Positions 30,778 through 64,000 of a DNA stretch of 64,000 bases are shown here, piece after piece. The notes below the pieces were generated by a model. That model was not told the origin of the DNA. It saw nothing but the letters and a program-made list of their open reading frames with translations, and made no database searches. A program made the translations under genes and the position numbers. Origin of the DNA: Natronosalvus hydrolyticus (GTDB lineage Archaea; Halobacteriota; Halobacteria; Halobacteriales; Natrialbaceae); contig JAOPJZ010000004.1 of assembly GCA_025517525.1 (NCBI GenBank), forward strand, positions 186,001 to 250,000, in the 5' to 3' direction. Every line of letters starts with the position of its first letter. Position 1 is the stretch's first letter.

Positions 30778-30828
<51 letters not shown>

Positions 30829-41946: not shown

Positions 41947-42627
41947 TCAACGCATATCGAGCAAGGCGGCCCCCAGCTCCCGCTGTAGAAGGTTTTTATC
42001 TAACAGAAATGTCGGTGTCCGTGGAAGAAGTAGACAATTTTCGCAGTAATTCGAACATTCACATGTTTCTAGCTGCATTGAAGCCTCATCGAATACAGCA
42101 CTCAAATTTTTATAAATAGGATATGAGAGACCTGCTCCACCAGGTTCATTGTCGTATACAAGAAGACGAAGATAATCGTTAAGGAGGTGTGGTTCACACT
42201 GTATCTCAATCGGATTAACGCCCAACTGTCGTGCCATGACGCTCCGAAGACTATATCCTACCGAATAAAGAGCAGCTAGACGCTCTTCTGGTGTTGTGAC
42301 ATCTGCATATGTCCGGAATAGTCTTTTCGACACCTGAAGTTCAAATCCATCTGTTCCGTATTGATGGCCTGCTATCGCCCGTTCGCTTCGTACTTCTCCA
42401 TCCTCTATTTTCAGGATCTCTCCGTGGGCTTCTTGGACTTTGGATGATGACTGATACGTAATCTCGACGCGAGGAACAGCACGCTGAACTCGTATATTCT
42501 TTACAAATTTTGTGTCAATCTCTCCTGTCGTTCTTTCTTCGACTGTTTCTGATTCTCTTTTGAGCAAACTGGTATCGAACTCGTCGTCGCCAATTAAATG
42601 CGCGAAATCATCTAATTCATCAGTCAT
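41947..42627 (-). CDS. DUF1998-like protein, last gene of the defence operon
   Basis: A 226-residue protein of DUF1998 character. Central features are YDNEPGGAGLSYPIYKNLSAVFDEA and the four-Cys set CECSNYCENCLLLPRTP, which correspond to the D-x-x-GGAG and Cys cluster of the family. DUF1998 domains occur at the C-terminus of DEAD helicases and as the separate DrmB protein of DISARM. Here the gene overlaps the helicase stop by 8 nt, so the two products are made together and probably interact. ATG 42627 was chosen over 42672 because that extra part lies inside the helicase gene. At 226 residues it is much shorter than DrmB. Confidence 0.75.
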   Translation of the reverse strand: MTDELDDFAHLIGDDEFDTSLLKRESETVEERTTGEIDTKFVKNIRVQRAVPRVEITYQSSSKVQEAHGEILKIEDGEVRSERAIAGHQYGTDGFELQVSKRLFRTYADVTTPEERLAALYSVGYSLRSVMARQLGVNPIEIQCEPHLLNDYLRLLVYDNEPGGAGLSYPIYKNLSAVFDEASMQLETCECSNYCENCLLLPRTPTFLLDKNLLQRELGAALLDMR

Positions 42628-45600
42628 TGCTAACACCTCTAAGTGTGAATGGGCGTGTTCTCTTATTGCCATAAGATGGTTTCAGGATTGCACCAAGATA
42701 CTCATGGACAGGTAGTGATCGTAACGTGTCACTGCATACTGGACAGTTGGAGCTGCCCTCTGGCTGTTGGTGTAAGAATAGTAAACAAGAAGTATTCATA
42801 CAAGTATTAGCTGTATATAAGGGGTCGGAGCTTACCTGCGTATTGACAACCTCATATTTTGTACCGGCGTATGTATCAACTGCCTCAGGATACGTCTCTC
42901 TGAGAGCTTGGCGAAGACTCTTCGATTCATAATGAAGATGTTCTGTTACCGATCCGGAGCCTTCTTGCTCACGGAACAGGACAGCGTTATCATCAGCAGA
43001 CCGATATTGAGATATGAGGCCTGCTTTAGAAAGTAGCATTGGAAGATACCCTAATTCACGACTAAGTTCAGATAGAAGCTCTTCTTGAATGATTCTTCGT
43101 CGTTTGAGCTCTGATACTCCGTTTCCAGATTCAGAAAGACGTGAGTACAAACTGTAAAACTTGAATAAGCGGCGCGTGGTCTGTCTTTTTATAATACCCT
43201 CGTTTTCACAGAGTGTATTTATTGCATATTCAACCTCACTTTGTGATTTCGAATTAAAAGTCGAAGTGAGATGCGATATAAGTTCTTTTTCCTTATTTTC
43301 TATTTCATCTAGTAGTGCTTCTATACTCGAATATGCTGCGTTGAGAACTGACTCAAGATCGGACTCAGTGTCGATCCGCTCGTACTCCTCATAATTGCTG
43401 TCGGACAAATTCATAAAAGTAATCACTTCTGAGAAAAGCTGTGTCATGAACGGTGTTTCCCCAATCTCATTGATGTGGGTTGGCTTAGGATCCGCATTAA
43501 GAAATCTCCCCCCAATATCCTCGAAATAATGGCTATCAACAGCACTGTGAGGGTTTGCAACTGTAAAAACAACTGATGACCTAGATAGGTCTCGTCCTGC
43601 TCGTCCGGCACGTTGTGTATAACTTGCCTTCGTAGGTGGGATTCCAAGGTTGACGACGCAGTCGAGGCTCCCAATATCGATTCCCAGCTCTAAGGTTGTT
43701 GTGGCTGATACAACATTTATCCGCGGCGGAGAGGCTGCAAACGCCTCTTCAATGGTGTTTCTTGTATTTGGGTCAATTCCGGCTTTATGAACCGCAGAGA
43801 TGAGGGGATTTGGTTCAGATTGGTAAACAACCTTTGCCCAGTGGTCCAGAGTATATGGTGGACTATATTCACCAGATTCAGGTGAGATATCTACCTTATT
43901 TTCTCGGTCCACATCTGAAAGGTCATGGCCACAGTCTGGACAGAAGTCTCGGTCCCAGAATGGCCAGCCACCATAACAGAAGCTACAAACTTTTGCCAGC
44001 CGGTTGACCCTTAGCTTCAGAAACTGAGGACGCAGGGTAAGAATGGTTGAGACACCATCCCCATCCGATATCCGATCAACTTTGACGGTACCTTGCTTTT
44101 CAAGTGATTCGATGGTGTTCTCTATCTTCGTTTCAATATCTGGTATGGCATCGGCGTACTGTTCAATGGAGTTAGTTAGTTTCTGCTGGATTCCGTCCTT
44201 TCGGACGCTCATATTCCGGTTAAGATCCTGGTGTGGTTTAAATGCAAGAACTTTTACAATCTCGTTTGTGAGAAGGTTCTGTTCCGAATCTTGTTCAGTA
44301 AACACGCTAACAATCCCCGCATCGAAGAGTCGGCGATGCTCATCAGAATTCAATGGATTAGAAAGTCGATAGAGGTGACGGGAGAGACCAGAGTAGAGAA
44401 TTTCATCTTCCAGGTAACCATATGGTTTTTCGATATAGATCCTTTTGAGTTTTGAATGAAGAACATCTTGAATAGCATCTGCTGTGTAGTGTTTTTCTTC
44501 TTCTGGTCCTTCTTCGAGGAGTGTAACGAGTAATCGCTGTGCTTCTAATGAGTAGTCCAATGCTCTCATAAGTGCGCCAATACCCTCTGCATCACTACGT
44601 CGGTTTGAGAAACAGAGGGCTTTTCCTTCACCGAAGTCCTTGAGATCTCGCCCCAACTGTGTGAGGAGATAAGAAAGGAATGTTGTTGATTTTATGCGCT
44701 GCTCAGATATATTATAAATCCCGGAGCAGGAACACGCCTTTCCAATCGCCCATCGGGAATCTCCGTCTGTATAGTAAAGGGTATCACACCGAGAACATGA
44801 TTCAACTGGATAGAGGTTATGAGCCCGATAACCGCAGCTGTTAGAACGACTTGTGTGGAGTGACCGGCAGTCCTTACAGTAGTAGAACGTACTGAACGGT
44901 TTGAGAAAGTAGTGATGGCGGTCATACAAGATGCCTGCGAGCTTGCACCATTTGAGGATCGAATTAAACCGATTTGTTGTCTCGTCTGTCGTACTATCAG
45001 CATAGAGAGCAGAGGTAATCTCGTCAAGAGGTGCAAAATCATCGTCCCCAAATTCTTGAAATATGGTAGATATCTCAGGCACTTCCTCCAGTAGACGATT
45101 CTCAAGCTCTTTCCGAAGATCATGACGACGTCTGAATAGCGATTCTAGAGTGTCCTCTTCCCATGTCTCTGGCTTGTTCAGATCATTGAATATTTCTTTA
45201 CCAAAGTCGGTAACATGATTTCCATCGATTATTCCTAAACGTGTTGCGATTTTTTCAACCTCTTCTGAGAGCTCGCCTTTTGCTGACAGAGACCATCTCA
45301 TGACTTCTTCAAGAGCATCATAGGGCGTAACTGCCGGCGTTGATGCTGTTGGATCGTTTGGTGTTGAAGACGTAGCAACAGCTGGTACAAAGTCGATATG
45401 ATCGATATTATTCCGATCACGACGAAGTATTTCACTCGCAAATCCGACTGGATTTTCTATTGTGGCACTGGCAAGCACGATCGAAGATCCATACCTCTCA
45501 CGTAATCGTTCTATGAAATGTGACACTGCGGTACCGCTATTGCCATCCCAAACATGAGCTTCGTCAAAGACCACTAAATCAAGGGAGTCAGATGAAACAA

Positions 45601-46444
45601 GTTGACGTGAGTCTGAGGAAAATAGACGGAACTCGTATGCTTCAGGGTTTGTGATCATAATATCTGCCCCCTTATCACCAATTGTATCACGAGTTACTCG
45701 CAAGAAGTCAATCTCCACAAAGTTACCTGAGGAGTGTGCCTCTGGATTGGGGCAAAGTAGCGATTCTGTATTTCCATCCCATTCAAGTTTTTTATCACAT
45801 TCTGGGCATTGGAGCCCGCGAATATTCTGTCCGTCGTAGAGCTCGTAGCTTCCTTGAGGTGTATCACCGTCAAATATTCCGACTGTAATCTGTTTAAATC
45901 GGTCTCGATGTTGATTCAAATAATATCCATATTCTACAAGTCGATTGAGCTGATCCGTTTCTAAAGCCTTTTGAGGATAAACAATAAGACTCTTAATATC
46001 AGTTGGTGGCTCCCCATCCGATTTATTCTGCAAAGCGACCTGAAGTGCCGGAATTAAGAAACACTCTGTTTTCCCAGTTGCAGTGGGAACAGTAAGAACA
46101 GCATCATTACCTTGGTCTGTATCCAAAGATTCGAGAATACGACGAACCGCTCGATCCTGATGGTCATAAAGGCGGCCATCATTATCACCAAAAACTGCCG
46201 TTTGGATTGATTGTTCTAATTCAGAGGCAATACCAAAATCCGAACAGAAGGACTGCCACGTTTGAGGTGCCGACAGTGGAGGCTGTACTCTTTCGAGGAA
46301 CGGACCTTTTACTTGAACTAAATCGTTAAGGAATTCATCATAATTCGTAATCGTGCTCGGATCAAGCTTTGTCAAGCCCTTATTCCACCAAATGGTCTCC
46401 GTAGCATGTTCGATCGCTCGACGATTTAGTTCGTTTACATTCAT
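42620..46444 (-). CDS. DEAH-box helicase of the defence operon
   Basis: A 1274-residue SF2 helicase. Motif I VPTATGKTE is at 119-127, motif II DEAH at 294-297, SATIEN for motif III, and a distant second RecA domain with NVVSATTTLELGIDIGSLD and QRAGRAGRD (motifs V and VI). Zinc sites lie inside both parts: CPEC...CPN after motif Ia, CKDC...CSRC before the second domain, CSFC...CPDC in the third quarter. The order and long insertions are like the DISARM helicase DrmA and YprA/MrfA-type helicases, which normally carry DUF1998 in cis. ATG 46444 follows the previous stop by 5 nt. The likely job is ATP-driven translocation on target DNA. Confidence 0.85.
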   Translation of the reverse strand: MNVNELNRRAIEHATETIWWNKGLTKLDPSTITNYDEFLNDLVQVKGPFLERVQPPLSAPQTWQSFCSDFGIASELEQSIQTAVFGDNDGRLYDHQDRAVRRILESLDTDQGNDAVLTVPTATGKTECFLIPALQVALQNKSDGEPPTDIKSLIVYPQKALETDQLNRLVEYGYYLNQHRDRFKQITVGIFDGDTPQGSYELYDGQNIRGLQCPECDKKLEWDGNTESLLCPNPEAHSSGNFVEIDFLRVTRDTIGDKGADIMITNPEAYEFRLFSSDSRQLVSSDSLDLVVFDEAHVWDGNSGTAVSHFIERLRERYGSSIVLASATIENPVGFASEILRRDRNNIDHIDFVPAVATSSTPNDPTASTPAVTPYDALEEVMRWSLSAKGELSEEVEKIATRLGIIDGNHVTDFGKEIFNDLNKPETWEEDTLESLFRRRHDLRKELENRLLEEVPEISTIFQEFGDDDFAPLDEITSALYADSTTDETTNRFNSILKWCKLAGILYDRHHYFLKPFSTFYYCKDCRSLHTSRSNSCGYRAHNLYPVESCSRCDTLYYTDGDSRWAIGKACSCSGIYNISEQRIKSTTFLSYLLTQLGRDLKDFGEGKALCFSNRRSDAEGIGALMRALDYSLEAQRLLVTLLEEGPEEEKHYTADAIQDVLHSKLKRIYIEKPYGYLEDEILYSGLSRHLYRLSNPLNSDEHRRLFDAGIVSVFTEQDSEQNLLTNEIVKVLAFKPHQDLNRNMSVRKDGIQQKLTNSIEQYADAIPDIETKIENTIESLEKQGTVKVDRISDGDGVSTILTLRPQFLKLRVNRLAKVCSFCYGGWPFWDRDFCPDCGHDLSDVDRENKVDISPESGEYSPPYTLDHWAKVVYQSEPNPLISAVHKAGIDPNTRNTIEEAFAASPPRINVVSATTTLELGIDIGSLDCVVNLGIPPTKASYTQRAGRAGRDLSRSSVVFTVANPHSAVDSHYFEDIGGRFLNADPKPTHINEIGETPFMTQLFSEVITFMNLSDSNYEEYERIDTESDLESVLNAAYSSIEALLDEIENKEKELISHLTSTFNSKSQSEVEYAINTLCENEGIIKRQTTRRLFKFYSLYSRLSESGNGVSELKRRRIIQEELLSELSRELGYLPMLLSKAGLISQYRSADDNAVLFREQEGSGSVTEHLHYESKSLRQALRETYPEAVDTYAGTKYEVVNTQVSSDPLYTANTCMNTSCLLFLHQQPEGSSNCPVCSDTLRSLPVHEYLGAILKPSYGNKRTRPFTLRGVSND

Positions 46445-46449
46445 TATAA

Positions 46450-47307
46450 TTAGGAACTTAGATGCCTTCCACAAAGAGTTTCAAGATTATCAACACTCTG
46501 GCTTTCAAGCCGAGTGACGTTATCCTCCTCCTCCTCGATATTTCTTTTTAGTCTTTGTAAGGTGGCGATATCGGACTCGATGTCTGACTTGGCGTCTTCA
46601 GCAGACTCTTCATCAAAGTCTTCACCAGGATTTTGAAATTCTTCTTTATATTCATTAAGTTTATCCTCTATTTCTTGTCGCCGATCGGTACTTATGTTTT
46701 CCCAGCGAACACCACAGTGACTGCATTCTCCCCCTTGAAGGCCAATAAAGTGTATCGCCTTCTCTAACTTTTCCTTACTGTTCTTATAGATTTCTAGTGC
46801 TGTGTCTGCATCTCCACTATCGTATTCACTGAGGTCAGATTTGTATCCTGACAATTTTTCGCGTGCGTCATTAAGATCGGTACATCGATTGTATTCCGTT
46901 GTCACGGATTCACAGTAATCCTCGAAATCTGATGTCAGCGTTTCAGGCTCATCACTCTCAATAAAGAGGACTTCCTCATCATCAAGTTTGTTGAAAATAA
47001 CACGCCCTAATTCAACGTATCTGTCCTGTATTGTGTCATCAAGTTCCGAAAGTTCTGAAATCCTAGTCTCTGATTTCAGTGAATCTACGGCACTCTCCAC
47101 ACGCTGAAGATACGCAGATGCTTCGCTAAGGTTATCAAGATGATCGCTTATACGATTAACATTCTCGATCGACGATGTATAATTTTCACTCAGAAGTACA
47201 TCTACATCGGCGGTCTCTATATCAACATCTCCTAATGAGGTTGTCTTTGCGGTTTCTCCATCGTTTTCTCCTTCCAAGCCTACATCTGTGGTGGAATTAC
47301 TACTCAT
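46450..47307 (-). CDS. Coiled-coil protein with a Cys pair
   Basis: A 285-residue, very acidic, mainly helical protein. Long coiled-coil segments (about residues 40-90 and 235-275) flank a central motif GGECSHCGVRW, with one C-x2-C and possibly a second half from the C-terminal CGRH. The start ATG 47307 is set by a perfect GGAGGAG (47314-47320 on the minus strand) 6 nt before it; the earlier ATG 47322 lies in that ribosome site. It overlaps the upstream ATPase gene by 8 nt. The likely role is structural: a linker or zinc-mediated oligomer between the ATPase and the helicase. No family is recognised. Confidence 0.6.
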   Translation of the reverse strand: MSSNSTTDVGLEGENDGETAKTTSLGDVDIETADVDVLLSENYTSSIENVNRISDHLDNLSEASAYLQRVESAVDSLKSETRISELSELDDTIQDRYVELGRVIFNKLDDEEVLFIESDEPETLTSDFEDYCESVTTEYNRCTDLNDAREKLSGYKSDLSEYDSGDADTALEIYKNSKEKLEKAIHFIGLQGGECSHCGVRWENISTDRRQEIEDKLNEYKEEFQNPGEDFDEESAEDAKSDIESDIATLQRLKRNIEEEEDNVTRLESQSVDNLETLCGRHLSS

Positions 47308-50221
47308 CTGAATCTCCTCCATTATGAATAAACGATCTTACTTTCTTCCGCTTTCTCTGTAGAGATTCAGTTTGATTATTATACTCTTCGACTTTCGTTT
47401 GTTCACTATCTTGTAATTCCTTGAGTGCGTATCGAATATCTGATTCAGTCTCATGGAATAGTGAAGGATACAGTTCATCCTCGTCCAAGTATTCTCCAGC
47501 ACCCTGTGGTGGATTCTCAACTAGCCGTGAATAGAATAACGTACGATGAATATCCGAGATGTCTGAATTAGGTAGTTGCTGTATTTCATCCCAGATCATA
47601 CGATCTTCTTCCAGTAATGATTGAATACGTGAATACCCATCTATATTGAAGTCACAGCGAACAGACTCCAGTTCATCTGCGACATTCGAGAGTGCTGTGA
47701 TTCCGTTTAGCTCAGATTCTATCCTATCGATTTCTGAATCTTCAGTGAGGAAATAGTTAATCAGTTTCTCTGCATCTTCTAGCTCTGATAGAGCTTGATC
47801 TATATCGTCGTCTTGATGTACCCATTGGAGATCGTTTTGCATTTCTGCAATTGACTGAAGCTCTTCTAAGACTGGTTTTGGTATAGGACGTAGGTCACGA
47901 AGATCATCTATACTGCGGTCAGTCAAATAAGATATTCCACCATAATCACTATCAAAGAAAACGAAAGTGTCTTCTGTCCCTTCAATTTCTTTGAGACCTC
48001 CTGTTTCAATTAAGGATTTCAACTCGTTTCGATATTCGGAACGAATATCAAGGAGATCAATCTTCGTAACGAATCCTTGTTCTTTTATGATATCTAAGAC
48101 TTTGCTAAGTGCCTCTGCTTCAGGTAGTGTTGGTCCGTTATATTTTTTATATGTAGTAACATGAAGTTCTATAACAGATTCGTGAAGATCGCTAGTTAGA
48201 CCCCAAAGGTTCTCATAAAGATCAGGAGCGAGATGATCCTCTGATAGCGTTTGGATAGCCTGTATACGCTCCACGACAGTATCATAGTCCCGGTTCTCCG
48301 CGATCCGTCCTATCGTCCATGGTTCTTGGATATCTGAAATGGATACCCGTTGAATTATATCTCCCCAAGTATAGTCGGGTGTCCACTGGCGGTGAGTAGA
48401 GATCTCTTCATTGAACCAGTCTGGATCTGCCCAATCATTCTGTGGTTTATCAGTAAAGACCAAAATCCCTGAGTCAGGATGATCACGACCATAGAGGTCT
48501 CTGATCTGATTTTCAACGTCACTATCACTGAGAGCTTCGTCCTCAAAGAGAGCAAATATGAGGTATTCTCCCTCGTATTCTTCTAGCCCGCCACTTTCAG
48601 GTTTGAGCTTTCTAGCACGTCCCAATGATTCTTCCCTGGAAAAACTAGTTACTCCAAACCCTGGGTTTTCGATACCGGGAACTGACAATGTCGTCTGATC
48701 AGTGACGTTTGCTCGTTGAGTGCCAAACCACTCAATGACATTTATAAGGTAGTCTTCGGTCGCATATCGAAGATCATCTCTGTCTTCCTCTTCTAATTTC
48801 GTCTCGAATTCTTCAGCTTTTCGCAGATATTCATCGATCAACCGTTCGCGGGATTCTGAACTAGAGTCTGGGCTAGACGATCCAAAGTCAGGATCCAGTA
48901 ATTTGGGGTGAATCTTTAGTTCATTTTCGTCCTCAAAGATGACACGATTATCTAAGAGAGAATCACGGACATTATCTGATAACTCATCTATATTTCTAGA
49001 TCCGACTATAAGTTCCTTTGAAGCAGCAACTTCGGCCGTGCGATCGTCAGGGTCCAAGTCAGTGACTGCTTTGAAAGCAACTTTCAGACGAGCGCTTTTC
49101 ATTGCCCGGTCACATTCATCATAGAGATATGCACCAATCCCTCCATACTCGTTTGATGTTGTCGCGTCGTTTGCGTACCTTTTAATTGCTGTTCCAACTC
49201 CATCTATAAGATTACCTATTAGGCCATGTGTCCTCAAGAGACTCTCCATCCATTCTACGTTCGCATCAGTAAATGGCCCATACTCCTCGTCTTGCTCATC
49301 AAGATATACATCTTGGAAGTATTCCGTTAGAAGTTCACGTAGGTTGATTAATTGATCCTGCCGACCACGGATATTGATGACATGATTTTGGTCTAAGCGG
49401 TGCTGATTACCAGCAATATCTAAAGTAATATCTCCATTTCGACGCCGCATTTGATCGAACATATCATTTCGTGTGATTGATGACACATCTGGATGGCAGA
49501 ACAGTACGAACCCGACGTACGGATTAAGATGTTTTTCAAACCACTTTAGAACGTTTTGGGCTTCTTCTTTTCGATGGCTGGGAACCATTTCGTCAAAAAT
49601 AAATACAAACATATAGCCCTGATCAGCTAATTTTGAAATAACGTCACTGGGCTCTGTTTGACCATCAAATAGTCCTGCCTCTTCGGCGATCTCCCGGAAT
49701 TGATCTCCTGAAATATCTGCTCCATCAGTGAAGGATGATAGTTCCTCATCCGAAAGCTGTGTACTAATTGTATCAATCAATTGTAATTTATATTCTAAAT
49801 CCGGTACATTATCAATCGAATTGAGATATTGTTTACCTTCTGACTGAATTCTTTGAAGATATTTATAAGAACTCGGGTTTGGTAGTGACTTTTGCCAAAT
49901 TGGTAGAACAATCGGCACATTCTGGCGTGACTCGTTTTCGACAGGGTCTAGCTGGTCTCGAATATATCGAGTCATCGTGGTTTTCCCTGTTGCTTGGGCT
50001 CCTTCTATAATTAGAAAAAGTCCAGTGTCCGGATTACCAGCTTGTGCTTCTTCATAGAGACGATTGCTCCATTCATCCACAGCATTGATAACCTCGCTTT
50101 CAACAGTAGTTTCAACATGAACTCGATTCTCACTGCTATCATTTTCTTGCCAGTACTCTGCGAACGTTTGGTTAAACCGATTTGTATCAATCCCGAAGAC
50201 TGATTCAAGCTCTTTTGACAT
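47300..50221 (-). CDS. Large P-loop ATPase of the defence operon
   Basis: A 973-residue ATPase. Walker A GAQATGKTT is at residues 74-82 and Walker B is FVFIFDEMVPSHR near 205-220, followed by an arginine-containing FCHPDVSS region and a winged-helix-like stretch. The C-terminal 600 residues are helical with coiled coils and no known domain. Size, position next to a PglZ-like gene and overall layout resemble BREX BrxC/PglY and the DUF499-type ATPases of PglZ loci, though the sequence is too far off for me to name one. ATG 50221 begins 1 nt after the previous stop. A remote relationship to DpdH-type ATPases would also make sense with the deazaguanine genes. Confidence 0.7.
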   Translation of the reverse strand: MSKELESVFGIDTNRFNQTFAEYWQENDSSENRVHVETTVESEVINAVDEWSNRLYEEAQAGNPDTGLFLIIEGAQATGKTTMTRYIRDQLDPVENESRQNVPIVLPIWQKSLPNPSSYKYLQRIQSEGKQYLNSIDNVPDLEYKLQLIDTISTQLSDEELSSFTDGADISGDQFREIAEEAGLFDGQTEPSDVISKLADQGYMFVFIFDEMVPSHRKEEAQNVLKWFEKHLNPYVGFVLFCHPDVSSITRNDMFDQMRRRNGDITLDIAGNQHRLDQNHVINIRGRQDQLINLRELLTEYFQDVYLDEQDEEYGPFTDANVEWMESLLRTHGLIGNLIDGVGTAIKRYANDATTSNEYGGIGAYLYDECDRAMKSARLKVAFKAVTDLDPDDRTAEVAASKELIVGSRNIDELSDNVRDSLLDNRVIFEDENELKIHPKLLDPDFGSSSPDSSSESRERLIDEYLRKAEEFETKLEEEDRDDLRYATEDYLINVIEWFGTQRANVTDQTTLSVPGIENPGFGVTSFSREESLGRARKLKPESGGLEEYEGEYLIFALFEDEALSDSDVENQIRDLYGRDHPDSGILVFTDKPQNDWADPDWFNEEISTHRQWTPDYTWGDIIQRVSISDIQEPWTIGRIAENRDYDTVVERIQAIQTLSEDHLAPDLYENLWGLTSDLHESVIELHVTTYKKYNGPTLPEAEALSKVLDIIKEQGFVTKIDLLDIRSEYRNELKSLIETGGLKEIEGTEDTFVFFDSDYGGISYLTDRSIDDLRDLRPIPKPVLEELQSIAEMQNDLQWVHQDDDIDQALSELEDAEKLINYFLTEDSEIDRIESELNGITALSNVADELESVRCDFNIDGYSRIQSLLEEDRMIWDEIQQLPNSDISDIHRTLFYSRLVENPPQGAGEYLDEDELYPSLFHETESDIRYALKELQDSEQTKVEEYNNQTESLQRKRKKVRSFIHNGGDSDE

Positions 50222-50222
50222 T

Positions 50223-51179
50223 CTAATTCGCCTCAATCTCGAATTCACTTGCGGTGATTTCATCACTCCATGCTGTTTCCGCCTCGAAGTAACGAACTGT
50301 AAAACACTCTGCGTCAGGGAAATCTTGGTGTAAATGATAGAAAAGAACTGGATATGACTCTTCGTCAATAGTGGAGTCCTTAGCAAGTGGTCCACGCTTC
50401 ATAATATGGTGATCATAGAAGGATCTCGGAATAGGATACCACTCTTGCTGGAGTGTTTTAAAGAATTCTTCAAACTCTGGACTCTCATCATTCATTTCCT
50501 TTAAAAAATATTGATAAGTGTAGTAGAGCGCTGTTTGGAAAATATCCATACTTAGAACGGGGAGTAGATTGTCACCACCAGAATTTGTGTGTTCTCGTTT
50601 CGCAACTCCAAGATCGATTCCTCGATCGCGGACGAAACGGGCCTTGTTCGTATTCCAGGCACCGGAAAGCTCTCTCACCATGATGTCTACTGACCAAGTC
50701 GTTCTGTGTGTTCCCGTATCATTATCGCGTTGATCCCAGAGAGTTTCCATGAAAGTGTGGAACGCGTTATCGATACTCCCTGATTGTACACTCATATTAT
50801 ACGAGTTTAATTTTCGCAGGAGAAATGCTGCAACTGTTGCACGCTTAATTTCCGGAGATTGGTTATCATATAGTAGTTCTGCTAAACCACGGCCACTTGG
50901 CTCAGGAAGAAAATCATCATCGACTTCTGAATCCCTAGTAAGTCGGAGATCTTGATTTGTGTTTTCTGCTATTACATCTAAGACATCATGAAGCTCATTA
51001 TATGCCTGTGAGCTACCGCTTGGACTAAGTGTTGTTTCATCTTTTGGTGAATAACCAAAAGCTGCTACAGAGTCCTTTTCAGCTAGTTCCTCTGGAGAGA
51101 GAGGGCCTTCATCGTAGAGGACTTTGACAATCGTAAGCAGTGCTTCATACTTTCCTTTTGGGGGTGGATAGTTAACCAT
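50223..51179 (-). CDS. Unknown protein of the defence operon
   Basis: A 318-residue protein. Its N-terminus (YEALLTIVKVLYDEGPLSPEELAEKDSVAAFGYSP) reads as a winged helix or related helical DNA-binding module. The middle (PEIKRATVAAFLLRKLNSYNMS, HTFMETLWDQRDND) and the end (ECFTVRYFEAETAWSDEIT) are not recognised. It is spaced 3 nt from the PglZ-like gene and 1 nt from the ATPase gene, an exact operon position that in BREX loci is held by small helical proteins (BrxA/BrxB). Equivalence to them is only positional. Confidence 0.55.
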   Translation of the reverse strand: MVNYPPPKGKYEALLTIVKVLYDEGPLSPEELAEKDSVAAFGYSPKDETTLSPSGSSQAYNELHDVLDVIAENTNQDLRLTRDSEVDDDFLPEPSGRGLAELLYDNQSPEIKRATVAAFLLRKLNSYNMSVQSGSIDNAFHTFMETLWDQRDNDTGTHRTTWSVDIMVRELSGAWNTNKARFVRDRGIDLGVAKREHTNSGGDNLLPVLSMDIFQTALYYTYQYFLKEMNDESPEFEEFFKTLQQEWYPIPRSFYDHHIMKRGPLAKDSTIDEESYPVLFYHLHQDFPDAECFTVRYFEAETAWSDEITASEFEIEAN

Positions 51180-51182
51180 GAT

Positions 51183-53980: not shown

Positions 53981-54038
53981 GGTGTGAACACTGAGACGTG
54001 ACAGTTAGAGCTTCCGGCAATTGACGGCCTCTCGCCTC

Positions 54039-54743: not shown

Positions 54744-54765
54744 GTCGGTGATAGTGCATATATGT

Positions 54766-55548: not shown

Positions 55549-55551
55549 CTG

Positions 55552-56019
55552 CTACAGTATCCCTCCTGCGGCAAGCTCTCCAGTCTCACTCACCTCAACG
55601 GTTACGTCGCTCACAGTCTCCGGAAGCTCAATTCTCAATCGCCGTTCGAGGACTAATCCCATCACCTCCGCAGTCGGCGGCTGATCTAGGACGACGACGG
55701 CGTCGCCATCACCGCTGGCCTCAAACGCATCTACCAACGGATCTCCTCGCTCCACGAGGAACCGGTGATCCCACTCCGACAATACAGAAGTGATGACCCC
55801 CTTGTCAACGACCCATCCATCGGCAGAGAGGGTTCCAGTCACCGATACGGTGACCTCGTAGTTGTGCCCGTGGGGACGACTGCACTTACCATCGTGATGC
55901 AATATACGATGTCCTGTGCTGAGACGGATCGGTTGATTACGACCGACATGAAGGGTACGTTCGGCCCCAGCGAGGTCTTCCGAGGAAAGAGAGTATTCTT
56001 CAGGTATGCCTTCTAGCAT
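55552..56019 (-). CDS. queD: 6-carboxytetrahydropterin synthase
   Basis: A 155-residue enzyme forming 6-carboxy-5,6,7,8-tetrahydropterin from dihydroneopterin triphosphate. It has the three zinc His at H37, H50 and H52 and the catalytic Cys C46, in STGHRILHHDGKCSRPHGHNYE. A WDHRFLVERGDPLVD motif and a final Glu-rich strand follow. It is the first gene of the minus-strand preQ0 operon. GTP cyclohydrolase (FolE/MptA), needed for the substrate, is not in the window and is presumably supplied by the chromosome. Confidence 0.9.
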   Translation of the reverse strand: MLEGIPEEYSLSSEDLAGAERTLHVGRNQPIRLSTGHRILHHDGKCSRPHGHNYEVTVSVTGTLSADGWVVDKGVITSVLSEWDHRFLVERGDPLVDAFEASGDGDAVVVLDQPPTAEVMGLVLERRLRIELPETVSDVTVEVSETGELAAGGIL

Positions 56020-56043
56020 ACCGGGATATTATCGCCACCGTAC

Positions 56044-56051
56044 TTAAATTT
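56044..56051 (-). promoter_or_regulatory. TATA box of the queD-queE-queC operon
   Basis: AAATTTAA on the minus strand, centred 28 nt before the queD ATG at 56019; a leaderless promoter. Confidence 0.6.
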
Positions 56052-56161
56052 GAACCACTCGGTGGCTATGATCGAACTGATGGGAATGATTAGGTAACTG
56101 ACCGTTTCGACAATGAGAAGTTAATTGAGGTCACCGACAGAGAATACATACAGATCATTTG

Positions 56162-58063: not shown

Positions 58064-58139
58064 GGATACACCAGCTTGTAAGGGTAAACTCGGTTGATTA
58101 TCCGAACTATTAAGGTCTCCAAGGGAGATCAGCAGGTAG

Positions 58140-58601
58140 ATGACTTCCCTGCTCGTTCAGTCCTGTTCGGCCACCAAAGAACCGGTGGAAGAGCCGGTTC
58201 AAGCCATCGAGCTGTACGATGGATACTTTTTCCGGATTATCAAGAAGGCACAGCGCTCAAACCGGGTTCAGACAGGACTCGACATAATAATTATATCAGC
58301 AGAACATGGTGTCGTTGAGACTGATGACAAGATTGGATATTACGACAGGCGAATGGACACGGAGCGTGCGAGCGAGCTGAACGATACAGTCGTTGGAAGT
58401 ATTGCAAACAAGGTGTCTGAGGCGGGGTATGATAATATATGGATCAACCTGGGTAAGGACTACCTCCCAGCAGTCGAGGGTATTGAAAGTGCCGTCAACG
58501 TTCCCGTCAATTACATCCAAGGCTCCGGAATCGGAATGAAAGGCAAGCGGCTGAAGCAGCTGGTTTCCATCGACGGAGCCGTCGCGGTAAGCGGTGACTG
58601 A
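58140..58601 (+). CDS. DUF6884-like protein
   Basis: A 153-residue protein of DUF6884 type: VQSCSATK at the start, AIELYDGYFFRIIKKAQ, IIIISAEHGVVETDDKIGYYDRRM, and a C-terminal Rossmann-like end. DUF6884 and the ArcS C-terminal domain share the (P/S)C-S-x-x-K opening, which suggests this is a stand-alone counterpart of the domain fused to the preceding transglycosylase. Biochemical role is unknown. Spacing is 76 bp after the first transglycosylase and 4 nt before the second, and GGAG precedes the ATG. It may modify or handle preQ0 or the modified base. Confidence 0.65.
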   Translation: MTSLLVQSCSATKEPVEEPVQAIELYDGYFFRIIKKAQRSNRVQTGLDIIIISAEHGVVETDDKIGYYDRRMDTERASELNDTVVGSIANKVSEAGYDNIWINLGKDYLPAVEGIESAVNVPVNYIQGSGIGMKGKRLKQLVSIDGAVAVSGD

Positions 58602-58605
58602 CGAT

Positions 58606-59853
58606 ATGGTGTCGTTCAACGTACATGCTGAGGCGGGCGAAGCGCGTTGCGGTACGCTTCAAATAAATGACCGCAGCCTCGAAACCCCTCACCTGTTTCC
58701 AGTGGTGAACTTCTACGCAGGAGGAAACGAGGGCTCTCTGTTCGGCGGCGGGATCCATCGCACGATAAAAGAGTTCATGGTCAACCACCCGCCCGTGGTG
58801 GGGGAACAGAACTACAGTGACCTGTTCCCGGGGGTAATGACTTCCATTTCTTCCCTGGCAGACTACGGTATCTCGGAGGAAAAACTAGAGTGGTATCTAC
58901 ACAATAAAATTCGAGAATGGGAGAGTTTCAGTGACTACAATGGCGTGATATTCGCTGATTCTGGGGGCTATAAAATACTCACTCAGGGAGGGATACAGGG
59001 AAGGGACTTTGAGAAAGATATTGATCAAGACAAGGCTCTGGACATCCAGCTCGCGCTGGGTCCGGATATTTTCGTCAATCTGGATCATCCAATCCATCCC
59101 GACGACGAGTTCGAAGATCGAATCGAAAAAATGAAACAGACTGCGGTGAACGCCCGACTGTTCGCTGAGCGGAGAGACGAGATCGACGGCGCATGTTACC
59201 TCACCGTTCACGGCTACTACGAGGCGATGCTGGAGCGATCTTTTGATCTTATTGAAGAGGAGCTTGCGGAGCCGATACCGAAGGTATTCGACGGGGTTGC
59301 GCTAGGCAGCCTTGTCCCACGAAAGGACAATGTCGAGGTGCTCGTGGAGGCCGTCTCCGACTGCAAGCGCGAAATGCAACAGCGAGGTTACGAGGATCTA
59401 CCACTTCACGTTCTCGGAATTTCGGGTAATGCAATGCCGTTACTTGTCGCCCTCGGGGCCGACTCCTTCGATTCTGCTTCGTACCTACACCAAGCGATAA
59501 ACGGGAAATATTACGTCAACTTATTCGAGTCCGTACCGGTTGATGAGGCTGATTTCGACGCCTGTCAGTGCCGGATCTGTAATGACGACTTCCATCGTGC
59601 GCGAATGCGTGACCGGATGGAAGATCTTTATCAAAAGGACATTCTCGGTTCGGTCGCGGCGCACAACCTGGCGGTTCAACAGCGAGAACTTCGCAAGTTC
59701 CGTCAGCTGATTGTTGATGGAAACGAGCAAGCGGTTGCGACTTACCTGGAAGAGTCTGTGAAGGATCAGAAAGGTTTCCGTAAGTTCGTCTACAAACTAA
59801 TTAACGAACGAATGAATCCCTACTTTGAGGAGACTGATACAACCTATGCATAA
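58606..59853 (+). CDS. Second TGT-family (DpdA-like) transglycosylase
   Basis: A 415-residue TGT barrel without fused domain. The base-binding site is at D118 (ADSGGYKIL), VALGSLVPR follows, the nucleophile candidate is D289 in GADSFDSASY, and the zinc site is C320, C322, C325 (CQCRIC) with the HNLAVQQ His. The sequence differs clearly from the other copy, with a longer first domain. No PUA domain. Two TGT proteins with intact active sites and separate ArcS-like partners suggest base exchange on both strands or a heterodimer. ATG 58606 is chosen; GTG 58594 is four codons earlier and overlaps the previous gene. Confidence 0.78.
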   Translation: MVSFNVHAEAGEARCGTLQINDRSLETPHLFPVVNFYAGGNEGSLFGGGIHRTIKEFMVNHPPVVGEQNYSDLFPGVMTSISSLADYGISEEKLEWYLHNKIREWESFSDYNGVIFADSGGYKILTQGGIQGRDFEKDIDQDKALDIQLALGPDIFVNLDHPIHPDDEFEDRIEKMKQTAVNARLFAERRDEIDGACYLTVHGYYEAMLERSFDLIEEELAEPIPKVFDGVALGSLVPRKDNVEVLVEAVSDCKREMQQRGYEDLPLHVLGISGNAMPLLVALGADSFDSASYLHQAINGKYYVNLFESVPVDEADFDACQCRICNDDFHRARMRDRMEDLYQKDILGSVAAHNLAVQQRELRKFRQLIVDGNEQAVATYLEESVKDQKGFRKFVYKLINERMNPYFEETDTTYA

Positions 59854-61381
59854 GACACCACAAGTCAACGAGGTCAACGAGTTTATCGAGATAGCGAGCG
59901 ACTTTGAGGATCCGCTGGAAGTCATCAGAGAAGCTCTATCGAACTCCTACGACGCAAACGCTACGAGAGTAGATATCGAGATTACGCAAGACGATGAAGG
60001 GCGGAATACACTCACCATCGATGACGATGGTGATGGAATGTGCGAGCGGGACTTATCTTCGTTCTTTGATCTCGGAAACTCAAGGAAACATGACGCGATT
60101 GGATACAAGGGACACGGGACGAAAATCTATTACAAGAGCGACGAAATTCGAGTCGAGGCAGTCAAGGACGGTACACGGATCGAATCATTGATGGAACGAC
60201 CGTGGGAGACGCTGAACGACCGCGAACTTCCCATGTACTCGGTCGAGAAGACTGAAACCGACGAGTCATCGGGTACCCGAATTGAGGTTCACGGATTCCG
60301 TGCAGGTCGAGGTTTCGATCCACAGAAACTTACTTATAACAAGATTGAACACTACATCAAGTGGAAAACAATTGGTGGATCAACCGCCTGGTACTTCGAC
60401 GACGACTTCCATGAAATGGAAATAACCATTGAGCTATCAGATACCATCGACGACACGCGTCCCCCAATAAAGACTACCAACCGACTGAAATTTGGACCCG
60501 AAAACAGGGACCCTGAAGGTGAGTTCGTAGCTGAAAGAATGTGTAAGTGTTACCCACCCAGAGAGCTGTCCGTTACTCTTGACGACGGCCAAGAGGCATT
60601 GATCGAAGTTGTTGGAATGGTGGGTGGAAAGGAAGCGCGAAATGAGCTACCGACGTACGGAAAACACTCTGCACAGTTCGGAGTCTGGCTTGCCAAAGAT
60701 CACATCAAGGTTGAGAGATATAACGACGCCATCGGAGCCGACAATGAGTTCTTCCACTTCTTTTTTGTAGCTAACTGCCAGGATATCGAACTCTCTGCAA
60801 ATCGGGAAAAGATACGGAACAAGTCTGGCAACGTCTACCAGGCGATAACGGACGAGTTAGATCGATTCTTCACCAAGGTATGTCAAGACCCATGGTATCA
60901 AGATTATATCGAACGTCGAAAGCTAGAGAACAAAATGCAGAGTGTGCAGTCTCAGGCGAGCTCGCTTGATGATCGACGGGAACGTGCGGAAGAACAGGGA
61001 GGGCTTTCACCATCAAATTCCGCTGAAGTGGTCGCCATGTTGGAACGATACAGTGCCAACGGTGCTCCAGAGTCATTCAAAATTGCGGACTTTCAGTTGA
61101 ATGACGAAGTGAACACGATCCTTGAGACGGAAAACGGGTTTGATAATGCCTCAATAGAAGTCAAGCTGAGTGACTTCTTTAAGGATGAACCGCCTTTGAC
61201 TCATATTGACAGATTCGTTTGCTGGAAACTCGGTGATATTGATGCACTCAGCCAGCTTGAACGGACGCCTTACATGGATGAAACCATCCGATTCGATTTT
61301 TCCGATAACGAAATTAAGTATGGGGAAGACGATCCGAGGACGATTCCCATTCTCGAACTTTCCTCAAAGATCTCACCGTAG
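59846..61381 (+). CDS. GHKL-type ATPase (MORC-like)
   Basis: A 511-residue protein. The N-terminal ATPase domain has the N box EALSNSYDAN, G1 DDDGDGMCE and G2 GYKGHGTKI, all intact, followed by a transducer-like domain and the AQFGVWLAKDHIKVE and LSANREKI blocks. The last 150 residues have a coiled coil (RRERAEEQGG) and an unknown C-terminal domain. It is most like MORC/Hsp90-family ATPases that close as dimers on DNA, which are found in several anti-phage systems. ATG 59846 lies inside the end of the transglycosylase gene (8-nt overlap), so the two are translationally coupled. I read it as part of the same modification/defence set. Confidence 0.75.
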   Translation: MHKTPQVNEVNEFIEIASDFEDPLEVIREALSNSYDANATRVDIEITQDDEGRNTLTIDDDGDGMCERDLSSFFDLGNSRKHDAIGYKGHGTKIYYKSDEIRVEAVKDGTRIESLMERPWETLNDRELPMYSVEKTETDESSGTRIEVHGFRAGRGFDPQKLTYNKIEHYIKWKTIGGSTAWYFDDDFHEMEITIELSDTIDDTRPPIKTTNRLKFGPENRDPEGEFVAERMCKCYPPRELSVTLDDGQEALIEVVGMVGGKEARNELPTYGKHSAQFGVWLAKDHIKVERYNDAIGADNEFFHFFFVANCQDIELSANREKIRNKSGNVYQAITDELDRFFTKVCQDPWYQDYIERRKLENKMQSVQSQASSLDDRRERAEEQGGLSPSNSAEVVAMLERYSANGAPESFKIADFQLNDEVNTILETENGFDNASIEVKLSDFFKDEPPLTHIDRFVCWKLGDIDALSQLERTPYMDETIRFDFSDNEIKYGEDDPRTIPILELSSKISP

Positions 61382-61500
61382 TATGGTAATCCCGTCGGTT
61401 TTTGGTGTGCGTTTCTATCGTGATCTGACCCATTCACAGCGTTATCCATCCTCAATACGGAGTGGATGATCTGCCCAAGCGAGGTCCTCTGATATGGATT

Positions 61501-63324
61501 TTAACTACTATGTTGTGTAAGGCAGACTGGGAGTCCGAGGACTTCGGTTGGCTGTACGTCGGGGGCTTTGATCATCATCTGGCCTTTTCCGAACAGTGGA
61601 ATCCGGTCGCTGAACCCGCGCGGAATCTCGATTTTGTCAACAACTTCGTCTTCCAGTCCCAGGTAGATCCGCGTGTTCGTTTGATTCCGGATTTCTTCGT
61701 CGATATCCGCTGGGTTTTGCGTCACCATTCCTAGTCCGAGTCGTTGTTTTCGTCCTTGCTTCGCTGCTTCGACGAATCTGTCTACGATGTATTCTTGCTG
61801 TGTCGTAGCTCGGCTTGCGAGGTAGTTGTGGGCTTCGTCGACAACCAGCAGTAACGGGGTGTGTTTCACCTGTTCGCTCGGGTTCTGGTCGTCGAGTTTG
61901 TTGTCCACGATGTGCGCCAGCAATGACATCATCACTAAGCGTTCTTTCGGACCGGTCAGGTGATCGGTTGGGATTACGCTCACTCGTCCCGGGCGGAACA
62001 TCTCGTGCTCAATCTCAAGCAAGGACTGTCCCTGGTCGAACACGTCGTTGAACGAGCGTTGAGACAAGCGCCCCATCATTGCACTCCATGACTGGGGATG
62101 AATTTCGCCGTCGTCTGTGAATTCATGTTCGTTCGCTCGTACCCAGGTCATGAAGTCGTCGTATCGAGCGTCGCTATCGTTATCTAACGTCGAAAAATAC
62201 CCGCCGACAACGCGGGAAATCGCGTTTCTCGTTGGTCCTTGCGCGGAGTACGGGATGAGGAGGTCGGGGCGGTTTTTCACGACTGCGAACGGGATGCCGA
62301 ACTCGATCTCGTTCGTCGCTGCTGTACTCGGTGGGTTCACTTGATTGACCACGGGAATGAACGCTACCAGATCGTCCACGCCCCCGACACGGAAGCCTTG
62401 TTGATCCGCGTTGTCGAGCACTTCACGGTCATCCGGGGTTAGCTCGCTCGGGTCCGGGTTGTTCGCTAGCTCTGCGTACTCGTTCTCTGGGTCCAAAATC
62501 ACGGTGCAGAGTTCTTTGGTCGTTTCCGTGCCGTGCTTGTCTTCGACCGTGTATGCTGGGCCGCCGTGCCCGCCAGCGAATTGCCGGAGAATGTTTTTAC
62601 ACGTGTGTGTTTTTCCTTTCCCTGTGCTTCCTGCGATCAGGAGGTGTCGCCAGAGTGCGGGTTCTTCAGTCTCACTCGGGTCGGGGTTCGGGAAGTGGTA
62701 CACTAGCGGTTTTTCCATTGACCGTGGGACAGGGTCTCCGCTCACGGCGACGTGCCCAAGTGGGATCCCGTGGTCTGGGAGGTTCAATCCTCGGAAGAGG
62801 TACTCTTTGTCTTCGATCAACTCGACTGATTCGAACGGTTTGGGTATTTGGTCAACTGCGCCTCGGTCAATTACGACGTCGCCTTCTGATGCTCGTTCGT
62901 GGCGAAGGATCGTGATTGGGTCAAGCTGTGCGATCAACGGGTAATCGTCTTCGTTAATTTCGAAGTCTGGTTGAATCCCAGGAATGTCTGAGAGGTCTCG
63001 GAGCGTTGTTTCCATGTCGTATTCAAGCCCAGATACGGCAGTGAAAAGCACGTTTTCGGGTAAATCTTCGTCATCGTCGCTGAATTTTGGGAACGGAACA
63101 CCGACGTAGTCTCCGACGTGAACGTCGTTCTGCCGGTTTTCTGTGGTCACGAAGGCTTTCACTTCGTGCTCGTCCATCCCGATTTGCAACCCGTCGCTCG
63201 CCGTCACGTGCCCGATGCGGCGACCAGAGCGCTCCGGGTCGGCGTCCGTGACTTCGAACGAACCACCCAGCTCGTCGAGGTACGCTTCCATGTCCTTCGA
63301 ATCGGGGCGGTCTTGATCGCTCAC
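61501..63324 (-). CDS. herA: HerA-type hexameric ATPase
   Basis: A 607-residue HerA/DUF87 ATPase. An N-terminal HAS-barrel-like region is followed by the RecA-type motor with Walker A AGSTGKGKTHT near residue 235, a long acidic haloarchaeal insertion, Walker B LLLVVDEAHNYLA and QNPADIDEEIRNQTNTRIYLGLED. HerA pumps DNA with the nuclease NurA during end resection. The start GTG 63324 overlaps the NurA stop by 4 nt. Haloarchaea keep a core HerA-NurA pair near mre11-rad50; neither partner is here, so this one is probably a defence-linked copy. The operon points at the GHKL gene, 119 bp away. Confidence 0.85.
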   Translation of the reverse strand: MSDQDRPDSKDMEAYLDELGGSFEVTDADPERSGRRIGHVTASDGLQIGMDEHEVKAFVTTENRQNDVHVGDYVGVPFPKFSDDDEDLPENVLFTAVSGLEYDMETTLRDLSDIPGIQPDFEINEDDYPLIAQLDPITILRHERASEGDVVIDRGAVDQIPKPFESVELIEDKEYLFRGLNLPDHGIPLGHVAVSGDPVPRSMEKPLVYHFPNPDPSETEEPALWRHLLIAGSTGKGKTHTCKNILRQFAGGHGGPAYTVEDKHGTETTKELCTVILDPENEYAELANNPDPSELTPDDREVLDNADQQGFRVGGVDDLVAFIPVVNQVNPPSTAATNEIEFGIPFAVVKNRPDLLIPYSAQGPTRNAISRVVGGYFSTLDNDSDARYDDFMTWVRANEHEFTDDGEIHPQSWSAMMGRLSQRSFNDVFDQGQSLLEIEHEMFRPGRVSVIPTDHLTGPKERLVMMSLLAHIVDNKLDDQNPSEQVKHTPLLLVVDEAHNYLASRATTQQEYIVDRFVEAAKQGRKQRLGLGMVTQNPADIDEEIRNQTNTRIYLGLEDEVVDKIEIPRGFSDRIPLFGKGQMMIKAPDVQPTEVLGLPVCLTQHSS

Positions 63325-64000
63325 CAGTCCCCACCTCCTTGATAAGCAAGGTGTTCCCAACGCGCTCTATTATAATCGCTCACCGTTTGACTTTTCATAT
63401 TTTCACTAATCCTGTCTCTAACGTCTAACGTGATTTGTGCGTGGTGATCCGCATCGAGCACCGCACGCGGCGTATCCTCTGTCTCGACTATCTCTCGGAG
63501 AATCGCTCGTTGGAACATTCGACGACCTTCTAAATCCATGTTTTGGACGTACATTGCGGGCACCTCGATACGGAATATGTGGCCTTCGCGCGGGACACGA
63601 GCGAAGAAGAACGCTCGACGCAGGTCCGGTGCGGAGAATTCGCTGAACTCGAATTCGCCTACCAGTTCAACACGCTCGGATTTGATGCTGACCTTCTCCT
63701 GAACAACCCATGACGTGTACGAGTACGTCTGGTTATCATGCCGTGGTTGGGCAAGCAACGAGGTCGCGTACGCATAATCATCGGTCCACGGGACGCGGTT
63801 CTGTTCCGGTCCATCTTCTTGATTTGCTTCAATCGCTTTTAGCACCTCGTTGGTGTTCACGGATTTCGTCACCGCGATAACCGGGTGCCCGGATGCGAGC
63901 TGCTGCTCAATCCCGTCGACGTACAGCTGAACCATGGCTTTTGTTGCCTCTCGCCATTCGGGCGATACGATCGCCCCTTCAAGGGTAACGAACAACAGGC
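63321..64000 (-). CDS. nurA: NurA nuclease, C-terminal part
   Basis: The gene enters from the right edge, so its start and N-terminal catalytic residues are outside. The visible 226 residues have HPVIAVTKSVNTNEVLKAIE, DDYAYATSLLA, RAFFFARVPREGHIFRIEVPAMYV and the final LDADHHAQITLDVRDRISENM. These match the NurA family's C-terminal half, and the 4-nt overlap with herA supports it. NurA is a 5'-3' exo/endonuclease working with HerA. Confidence 0.75.
   Translation of the reverse strand, partial: LLFVTLEGAIVSPEWREATKAMVQLYVDGIEQQLASGHPVIAVTKSVNTNEVLKAIEANQEDGPEQNRVPWTDDYAYATSLLAQPRHDNQTYSYTSWVVQEKVSIKSERVELVGEFEFSEFSAPDLRRAFFFARVPREGHIFRIEVPAMYVQNMDLEGRRMFQRAILREIVETEDTPRAVLDADHHAQITLDVRDRISENMKSQTVSDYNRARWEHLAYQGGGDW

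Follow-up and report, generated by a model that had tools for sequence, protein, structure and literature searches.

A haloarchaeal island pairing a putative 7-deazaguanine DNA modification module with a PglZ-AAA+-helicase operon

Marking host DNA with a 7-deazaguanine base is a known idea, and several described systems come close to the locus analysed here. Bacterial Dpd islands, in the parts of the two texts consulted, combine preQ0 synthesis, a tRNA-guanine transglycosylase (TGT), DpdC and helicase/ATPase restriction genes (PMC12839542, PMC6884629), and DpdC is there assigned to the DUF328 family (PMC12839542). BRIGADE, according to the sections of the preprint consulted (Bell et al., bioRxiv 2025, PMC12458937), is confined to halophilic archaea and joins a predicted 7-deazaguanine cluster to ARMADA-like YprA helicases, usually two, and typically to a PLD or PD-(D/E)XK nuclease; the term PglZ has zero occurrences in its main text. 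BREX-Related Capture (BRC; Rakesh and Krishnan 2026, PMC12839542), in the sections consulted, comprises PglZ, DUF6079, a STAND NTPase, DUF4007 and HerA, sometimes with GNAT and TGT; HerA is found in all members, no DpdC homologue is present, and deazaguanine is proposed as the self mark. Here we analyse a stretch of 64,000 nucleotides (hereafter the window) from the haloarchaeon Natronosalvus hydrolyticus (assembly GCA_025517525.1, contig JAOPJZ010000004.1, positions 186,001 to 250,000), in which 7-deazaguanine genes adjoin a six-gene operon encoding PglZ, AAA+ and helicase proteins. We propose, with a probability of roughly 0.7, that the two form a restriction-modification system in which the host would label its own DNA with 7-deazaguanine and the PglZ-AAA+-helicase operon would act as the restriction half. 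What seems new is not deazaguanine marking but its pairing with this PglZ operon; the locus is closest to BRIGADE, and PglZ is its distinctive feature.

The queD-queE-queC genes, the two TGT-family genes and the six-gene PglZ operon were found where the earlier note, made from the sequence alone, had placed them. The minus strand encodes QueD, QueE and QueC (54039-56019), next a 157-aa protein in an open reading frame (ORF) of its own, and then the six-gene operon, which runs from 53087 to 41947 with neighbouring genes overlapping or separated by gaps of 1-3 bases. The plus strand carries, in this order, a 634-aa TGT-ArcS fusion, a 153-aa DUF6884 protein, a 419-aa stand-alone TGT and a GHKL ATPase. 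The GC content is 43% in the operon and 52% in the modification module, and this difference suggests that the two halves may have been acquired separately.

Within the modification module, QueD (6-carboxytetrahydropterin synthase of preQ0 synthesis, 55552-56019) matches Pfam PTPS at 2.7e-18, the QueE-type radical SAM protein (7-carboxy-7-deazaguanine synthase, 54766-55548) matches Radical_SAM at 5e-16 and the NCBIfam QueE models at 1e-23 to 7e-28, under their cut-offs, and QueC (preQ0 synthase, 54039-54743) matches PF06508 at 5e-72 and TIGR00364 with 185 bits (cut-off 150). The TGT-ArcS fusion (P0007, 56159-58063) contains a TGT domain (9.7e-29) and DUF5591, the ArcS domain (3.8e-19); the stand-alone transglycosylase (P0009, 58594-59853; TGT 1.2e-27) is the predicted DpdA equivalent, as it matches the PADLOC DpdA model at 6e-6, a model that P0007 does not match. 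The earlier note had described two transglycosylases with intact active sites and ArcS-type domains, and this description was borne out by the profile matches and by the motifs: the DSGG and FDS Asp motifs, which we take to hold the TGT catalytic residues, and the CxCxxC cluster are intact in both island enzymes, and in family alignments both columns are Asp in 37/37 stand-alone TGTs and 31/31 TGT-ArcS proteins. The ArcS part keeps PCSxxKPYxxSxxH (window sequence PCSQEKPYSESRTH); the corresponding motif PCxxxKPYxxSxxH, presumably catalytic in ArcS, is present by strict pattern in 28 of the 31 TGT-ArcS family members, and the genome's own ArcS has PCSARKPYSESQSH. The DUF6884 protein (58140-58601) has a predicted YaaA/ArcS fold, its best matches being YaaA (DUF328 family) and AF0587, the latter also matched by the ArcS half of the fusion, and is thus DpdC-like. 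This gene and that of the GHKL ATPase (59825-61381; HATPase_c_3 1.9e-12) are part of the modification operon, in which the ATPase is predicted to drive the exchange of bases or direct it to its target. In the TGT tree, which has long branches, the stand-alone TGTs form one group (88/97), the TGT-ArcS proteins were not recovered as one clade, and TgtA and ArcS fall without resolution on the TGT-ArcS/TGT344 side, so that the tree supports just the statement that the island TGTs lie far from TgtA. A virus-borne DNA modification was also considered and set aside: when 50,697 phage records were searched by tblastn with both TGTs, P0009 had one weak match and P0007 had none, and one viral-contig scan with P0009 found no relative. 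The 157-aa conserved protein (53507-53980, minus strand; cluster k17) is encoded in 8/40 of the loci described below and had no family match in our scans; in one of them (G207) its gene sits between those for GHKL and TGT-ArcS.

The operon of the other half consists of six minus-strand genes, and its description in the earlier note as holding PglZ, a large ATPase, a DEAH helicase and DUF1998 held up, with PglZ as a remote assignment. The PglZ-domain protein (51183-53087), a predicted effector phosphodiesterase/nuclease, matches the PADLOC PglZ model at 1.1e-6 and the response regulator 7pv7, a chain that we take to be PorX with a PglZ domain, at E 0.003, a value for the whole chain. Its open frame begins at 53237, its homologues start at Met51, and D458, DHG and HGGIS are invariant in 7/7 aligned homologues. 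The 318-aa protein encoded next (50223-51179) has no family match, and a solved-structure search of its family gave nothing useful. The AAA+ ATPase (47300-50221) has Walker A/B motifs and a predicted ORC/Cdc6 fold, which makes it BrxC-like in fold class only. The Foldseek match of BrxC (9zll) to its model has an E-value of only 0.017-0.022, Pfam BrxC gave no match, and BrxC was not among the 50 structure matches listed for the model. It is followed by a 290-aa protein with a CxxC motif (46450-47322; best E 8e-26), which aligns with the C-terminus of long ATPase relatives of ~1250 aa (1156-1261 aa) and thus corresponds to the C-terminal part of the ATPase as a separate gene; a solved-structure search with this AAA+ pair gave nothing useful. 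Likewise, the YprA-family DEAH helicase (42620-46474; DEAD 6e-18, Helicase_C) is followed by its MZB/DUF1998 C-terminal part as a separate gene (41947-42672; MZB 1.8e-11), which matches the C-terminus of ~1578-aa fused helicase relatives (hhalign probability 98). The helicase matches the DpdJ (1e-34) and DruE (1e-33) models, and the DrmA model more weakly (1.6e-23). When profiles of the PglZ, 318-aa, 290-aa and AAA+ proteins from the window were compared with those of 24 neighbour families, among them the families of cassettes B and C (below), the matches were all short and weak.

The evidence that joins the two halves comes from other genomes. The order was represented by 392 genomes, an even sample of a larger group, and the stand-alone TGT was detected in 39 of them at E <1e-110 (six at 80-100% identity, the others at 45-51%). 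These and one genome with a TGT-ArcS match only (G165) gave 40 loci, in which a TGT is thus present by construction, as is also the case for a second set of 12 loci chosen by a small TGT; the neighbourhoods covered mostly +/-20 kb, less at contig ends, and their ORFs were called with a simple in-house script. By tblastn, the stand-alone TGT, DUF6884 and GHKL were each found in 39/40 neighbourhoods and TGT-ArcS in 31/40; among the 39 stand-alone-TGT genomes, GHKL and DUF6884 are nearby in 39/39 and TGT-ArcS in 30/39. The module is accompanied by genes for QueC and QueE in 16/40 loci. Because TGT-ArcS was not detected near the module in 9/40 loci (G011, G024, G039, G089, G229, G330, G336, G345 and G357), the stand-alone TGT would be the better candidate for the inserting enzyme, with TGT-ArcS providing an added step. 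The AAA+ family, by profile search, occurs in four of the 392 genomes, namely, the window genome (G000), G396, G133 and G210, and lies 390-1790 bp from a deazaguanine module in all four, which suggests that the two halves belong together. The earlier note had made its proposal depend on such joint occurrence, and both halves are indeed together in G396, which has the whole six-gene operon 1.8 kb from the GHKL gene (identity to the window: PglZ 49%, 318-aa 58%, AAA+ 66%, 290-aa 45%, helicase 68%, MZB 63%) and modification genes 41-53% identical to those of the window. In G133 and G210 the operon (PglZ 28%, 318-aa 32-35%, fused 1254-1256-aa AAA+ 36-37%, helicase 49-50%, MZB 42%) is placed 439 and 390 bp, respectively, from a deazaguanine module of another type, the TGT344 module, comprising a 341-344-aa TGT, a 287-298-aa protein, a 385-396-aa protein (in G133, a BrxC/BrxD-type ATPase by Pfam) and QueD/E/C; that of G133 also has a 967-aa DpdA-DpdC fusion (DpdA 2e-75, DpdC 2e-6). 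The probability of random placement within 2 kb in four genomes is ~3e-10, a figure that assumes one 10-kb module per genome and ignores the shared descent of the G133 and G210 cassettes. A scan of GTDB contigs with two exact short patterns found two loci, in Halorubrum alkaliphilum DSM 23564 and in a Halobacteriales metagenome-assembled genome, which appear to be those of G396 and G210, respectively; it missed G133 and hence is not exhaustive. The PglZ-AAA+ cassette thus looks rare, and it is not a one-off, judging by the five further PglZ relatives and 28 further AAA+ relatives in the protein database. The TGT344 module is itself a second haloarchaeal deazaguanine module (locus L138, 11471-17598, in G133: DpdA-DpdC fusion, small TGT, 298-aa protein, BrxC/BrxD-type ATPase); its small TGT, 298-aa and ATPase genes in G133 cluster with those of 11 other small-TGT genomes, and its DpdA-like gene with those of 6.

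The neighbours of the window-type modification module differ from locus to locus, as judged by cassette labels for which one or two members of each cluster were scanned. Cassette A, the window-type PglZ-AAA+-helicase operon, is near the module in 2/40 loci. Cassette B, a fused YprA-type helicase of ~1578 aa with a DpdH-like ATPase of ~971 aa and usually three small proteins, is complete in 18/40 and present in part (helicase or DpdH-like ATPase alone) in 4/40. A DpdJ-type helicase is found in 20/40, often with a small PLD-motif protein (13/17 cluster members have the motif); cassette C (a phosphodiesterase-fold protein, a 255-aa protein, a 1281-aa AAA protein and HerA) and a DrmA-like helicase are each found in 5/40, and GmrSD-like genes in 12/40. 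One or more of the ATPase/helicase types (A, B in whole or in part, DpdJ, C, DrmA) are present in 36/40 loci; the other four (G272, G281, G293 and G378) are of the GmrSD type. In the helicase tree, the four cassette A helicases are sister to those of B (96/96) and apart from the DpdJ-type and DrmA-type groups (100/100 each). In the second set of loci, DpdH-like ATPases of cassette B also adjoin the TGT344 module (G083, G134) or its small TGT (G253). The modification core is largely constant across the 40 loci, and the restriction neighbours vary among DpdH/DpdJ-like, DISARM-like, Pbe-like, GmrSD-like and PglZ-like types. DISARM-like DrmA-DrmB-DrmC genes were observed at L067 10280-16390 and L053 12920-19033 (DrmA model matched in G024; DrmB and DrmC in G173). 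PbeA/PbeC-type genes, known from phosphorothioate systems, were observed near the module at L056 1357-5067, L122 11229-13715, L093 1606-8453 and L078 67-2175, some of these members having been scanned and others labelled by cluster.

On the basis of the observed gene content, active-site motifs, two predicted folds, linkage in other genomes and module exchange, we propose a scheme in which QueD, QueE and QueC would make preQ0, and guanine in DNA would be exchanged for preQ0 by the stand-alone transglycosylase, with the TGT-ArcS fusion probably taking part and the GHKL ATPase powering or targeting the exchange. The DUF6884 protein would turn the nitrile into an amide. Lysine attached by the ArcS domain would lead towards preQ0-lysine or, with the host RaSEA, deoxyarchaeosine. 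Since ArcS of Thermococcus, in the parts of the report consulted, is not limited to whole tRNA and also attaches lysine when preQ0 is offered in RNA fragments or as nucleoside or nucleotide (PMC11298593), such chemistry on DNA-borne preQ0 is conceivable. As the transglycosylase is fused to ArcS, an unusual mark is predicted, perhaps one of these two bases, and it is this putative chemistry that gives the island its greatest interest. On the restriction side, the YprA-type helicase (DEAH and MZB proteins) and the ORC-type AAA+ ATPase would engage unmarked DNA, which PglZ would cut. The parts of this scheme that we infer are the action on DNA, the identity of the base finally formed, the sequence of the steps and the cutting role of PglZ. 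More tentatively, and short of even odds, the loci might represent an open platform, in which one deazaguanine-writing core, with a TGT-ArcS base new to cellular DNA (preQ0-lysine or deoxyarchaeosine), would be served by interchangeable cassettes of BREX, DISARM, Dnd/Pbe and Dpd ancestry, the PglZ-AAA+-YprA cassette here reading the deazaguanine mark instead of methylation.

In comparison with described systems, the window shares with BRIGADE a 7-deazaguanine cluster (QueD/E/C and two TGTs) in a halophilic archaeon, with relatives that match haloarchaeal contigs, and probably a YprA helicase of the ARMADA/Druantia side, as judged from its DruE match and the tree rather than from a BRIGADE reference sequence. 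However, it has one helicase split over two genes, the one of its kind among the scanned ORFs, instead of two helicases; its cassette contains PglZ, the ORC-type AAA+ ATPase and the 318-aa protein; and no PLD or PD-(D/E)XK Pfam match was found in the six-gene operon. The window thus looks like a BRIGADE-like variant in which PglZ replaces the PLD nuclease and the second helicase. With BRC it shares PglZ and an ORC/Cdc6-type ATPase, with a TGT in some BRC members, but it differs in the YprA helicase of the cassette and in the QueC/D/E and DpdC-like proteins of the island. BRC membership was rejected, with no DUF6079 or DUF4007 Pfam match in the window operon at E 0.01; a HerA gene does adjoin the module, but inside a HerA-NurA-SMC-metallophosphoesterase operon. 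With Dpd the locus shares preQ0 synthesis, a TGT, a protein that has the DpdC (DUF328) fold by structure prediction, and helicase/ATPase restriction genes, whereas it has two TGTs, one of them ArcS-fused, a GHKL ATPase with no DpdB seen, a PglZ restriction half and a helicase that, despite its DpdJ model match, lies outside the DpdJ-type clade J. The earlier note had joined deazaguanine modification to a BREX/DISARM-like module; the joining to PglZ, ATPase and helicase stands, and membership in BREX or DISARM does not. The remote PglZ domain and the ORC-type AAA+ ATPase do recall BREX, but no PglX/BrxX methyltransferase gene was found in the window locus, deazaguanine genes being there instead, and the NCBIfam BREX models score far under cut-off on the window PglZ (BREX_PglZ_4, 15.2 bits against 140; BREX_PglZ_3, 14.6 against 250). 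Similarly, the YprA-family helicase with a separate DUF1998/MZB gene recalls DISARM, but the helicase is outside the DrmA clade, no DrmMI/DrmMII methyltransferase was found in the 35-64 kb ORFs, and there is no DrmC-type PLD match. The statement of the same note that no DNA methyltransferase is visible was upheld for the ORFs scanned between 35 and 64 kb, and genome searches, with two methyltransferase families only and other families not searched, gave no match inside the window; a BREX or DISARM with a methyl mark was rejected, the helicase and PglZ falling outside those families. Its remark that no described system has this gene set was too strong, given that BRIGADE has deazaguanine and YprA helicases (PMC12458937) and BRC joins PglZ and TGT (PMC12839542). 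This exact gene set is not in the sections of those two texts consulted, nor did searches of open-licence PMC papers list one that, judged by its title and the opening of its abstract, describes it.

The island and its surroundings also contain further genes. GC content drops from ~61% to 43-54% across it, like an integrated element, with a tRNA-Lys at 30778 and an integrase gene at 35479-36273. A CARF and CARF-PIN-like pair at 37376-38883 (PADLOC CARF_m1 6e-64, CARF_PIN 2.5e-21) could be a cyclic-nucleotide-sensing defence pair. Adjoining the module (window 61501-64000, continued in L006 1-5140) is an operon of HerA, NurA, an SMC/Rad50-like protein and a Mre11-like metallophosphoesterase, its first genes being minus-strand frames for a HerA-type ATPase (61501-63360; DUF87 8e-8) and a NurA-type nuclease that runs past the window end (63321-64000; NurA 1.7e-5). 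The same set in identical order is found near the deazaguanine module in G396 and G142 (~31-49% identity). It was rejected as a core part, the metallophosphoesterase being matched in 373/392 genomes at E 1e-40, many of these matches probably being housekeeping Mre11; the window's genome has further copies on contigs C56 and C1. Downstream (L006 5480-9514) there are an AAA_5 protein, presumably McrB-like, and a 464-aa partner with homologues near the module in G173 and G226. A PDDEXK_4 protein is encoded ~12 kb beyond the GHKL gene.

Other readings of the locus have to be weighed against the proposed restriction-modification system. A role of the TGTs in modifying tRNA or other RNA, next to a defence operon with which they have no connection, would agree with the activity of TGT-family enzymes on tRNA in most organisms and with the best solved-structure match of both island enzymes, the archaeosine TGT 1iq8. 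But TGT-family genes occupy four loci in the 4.54-Mb genome of 67 contigs, namely, the island pair, a 497-aa TgtA (C14) and ArcS (C7), and the genome also has RaSEA on C23 (435 bits, cut-off 212) and a second QueC on C45, adjoined by a radical SAM match of QueE size. An archaeosine gene set (TgtA, ArcS, RaSEA and QueC/QueE; QueD was not searched) is thus present outside the island, which suggests that the genes of the island serve something other than the tRNA pathway. Because of this separate set and the lack of a PUA domain in the island TGTs in the Pfam scan, a tRNA-only role is unlikely for them; the DpdC-like partner, the varied restriction cassettes beside the module and the DpdA-DpdC-bearing module that replaces the window-type module beside the same cassette in G133 all speak against RNA as well, so that we regard this reading as highly improbable. 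An ordinary BRIGADE member with a poorly recognised second helicase and nuclease is a nearer alternative. BRIGADE is a halophile-confined combination of a 7-deazaguanine cluster with ARMADA-like YprA helicases in the sections of the preprint consulted (PMC12458937), the window helicase is sister to those of cassette B, and many B loci also carry a DpdJ-type helicase with a small PLD-motif protein, which would fit the BRIGADE Type I description as far as that description was consulted. Nevertheless, the scanned region has a single YprA-type helicase, its cassette has no PLD or PD-(D/E)XK family match, and PglZ, absent from the main text of the preprint, and the ORC-type AAA+ stand instead; with BRIGADE compared by description only, we consider this improbable.

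We likewise think it unlikely that two independent defence modules share the island, with the PglZ-helicase system not reading the deazaguanine mark. The CARF pair, the HerA-NurA-SMC-metallophosphoesterase set and the AAA_5 protein attest to other systems in this defence island, and the halves differ in GC content and occupy separate operons; against this, the AAA+ family is <2 kb from a deazaguanine module in 4/4 carriers, with modules of two kinds, and no methyltransferase gene was found in the cassette as an alternative self mark. Several points do count against a deazaguanine-marked system with PglZ as its effector. Cassette A is in just 4/392 genomes, so the linkage rests on four loci, and the cassettes of G133 and G210 are closely similar. 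The PglZ assignment is remote, because PF08665 (PglZ) was not matched in our own Pfam scans of the ORF, its shorter form P0011 and two homologues, despite the precomputed label of the protein database, which gives PF08665 for P0011 and P0015. No DpdB-like (ParB-type) ATPase was matched in PADLOC scans of the island proteins, in a library that may have no DpdB model. The helicase tree carries warnings, because the window helicase is unusual in sequence composition and the DpdJ and DrmA groups have long branches. It is uncertain which base is finally formed, since 9/40 loci are without a detectable TGT-ArcS gene nearby. The other defence genes in the island, the HerA-NurA-SMC-metallophosphoesterase set and the CARF pair, are possibly independent, and ~27 kb beyond the end of the window the contig has an 832-aa frame with an N6-methyltransferase domain (G000:C34:277110-277829).

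If the proposed restriction-modification system is real, it would show that restriction systems can be taken apart into a self mark and a machinery of attack, one haloarchaeal deazaguanine writer being accompanied by cassettes of PglZ, DpdH/DpdJ-like, DISARM-like, Pbe-like and GmrSD-like types. It would offer a testable place for hypermodified guanine in archaeal genomic DNA, Halorubrum alkaliphilum DSM 23564 being a named strain with the same pairing, and in the TGT-ArcS fusion a candidate enzyme that may both insert preQ0 and decorate it. It also bears on whether PglZ can be an effector without methylation.

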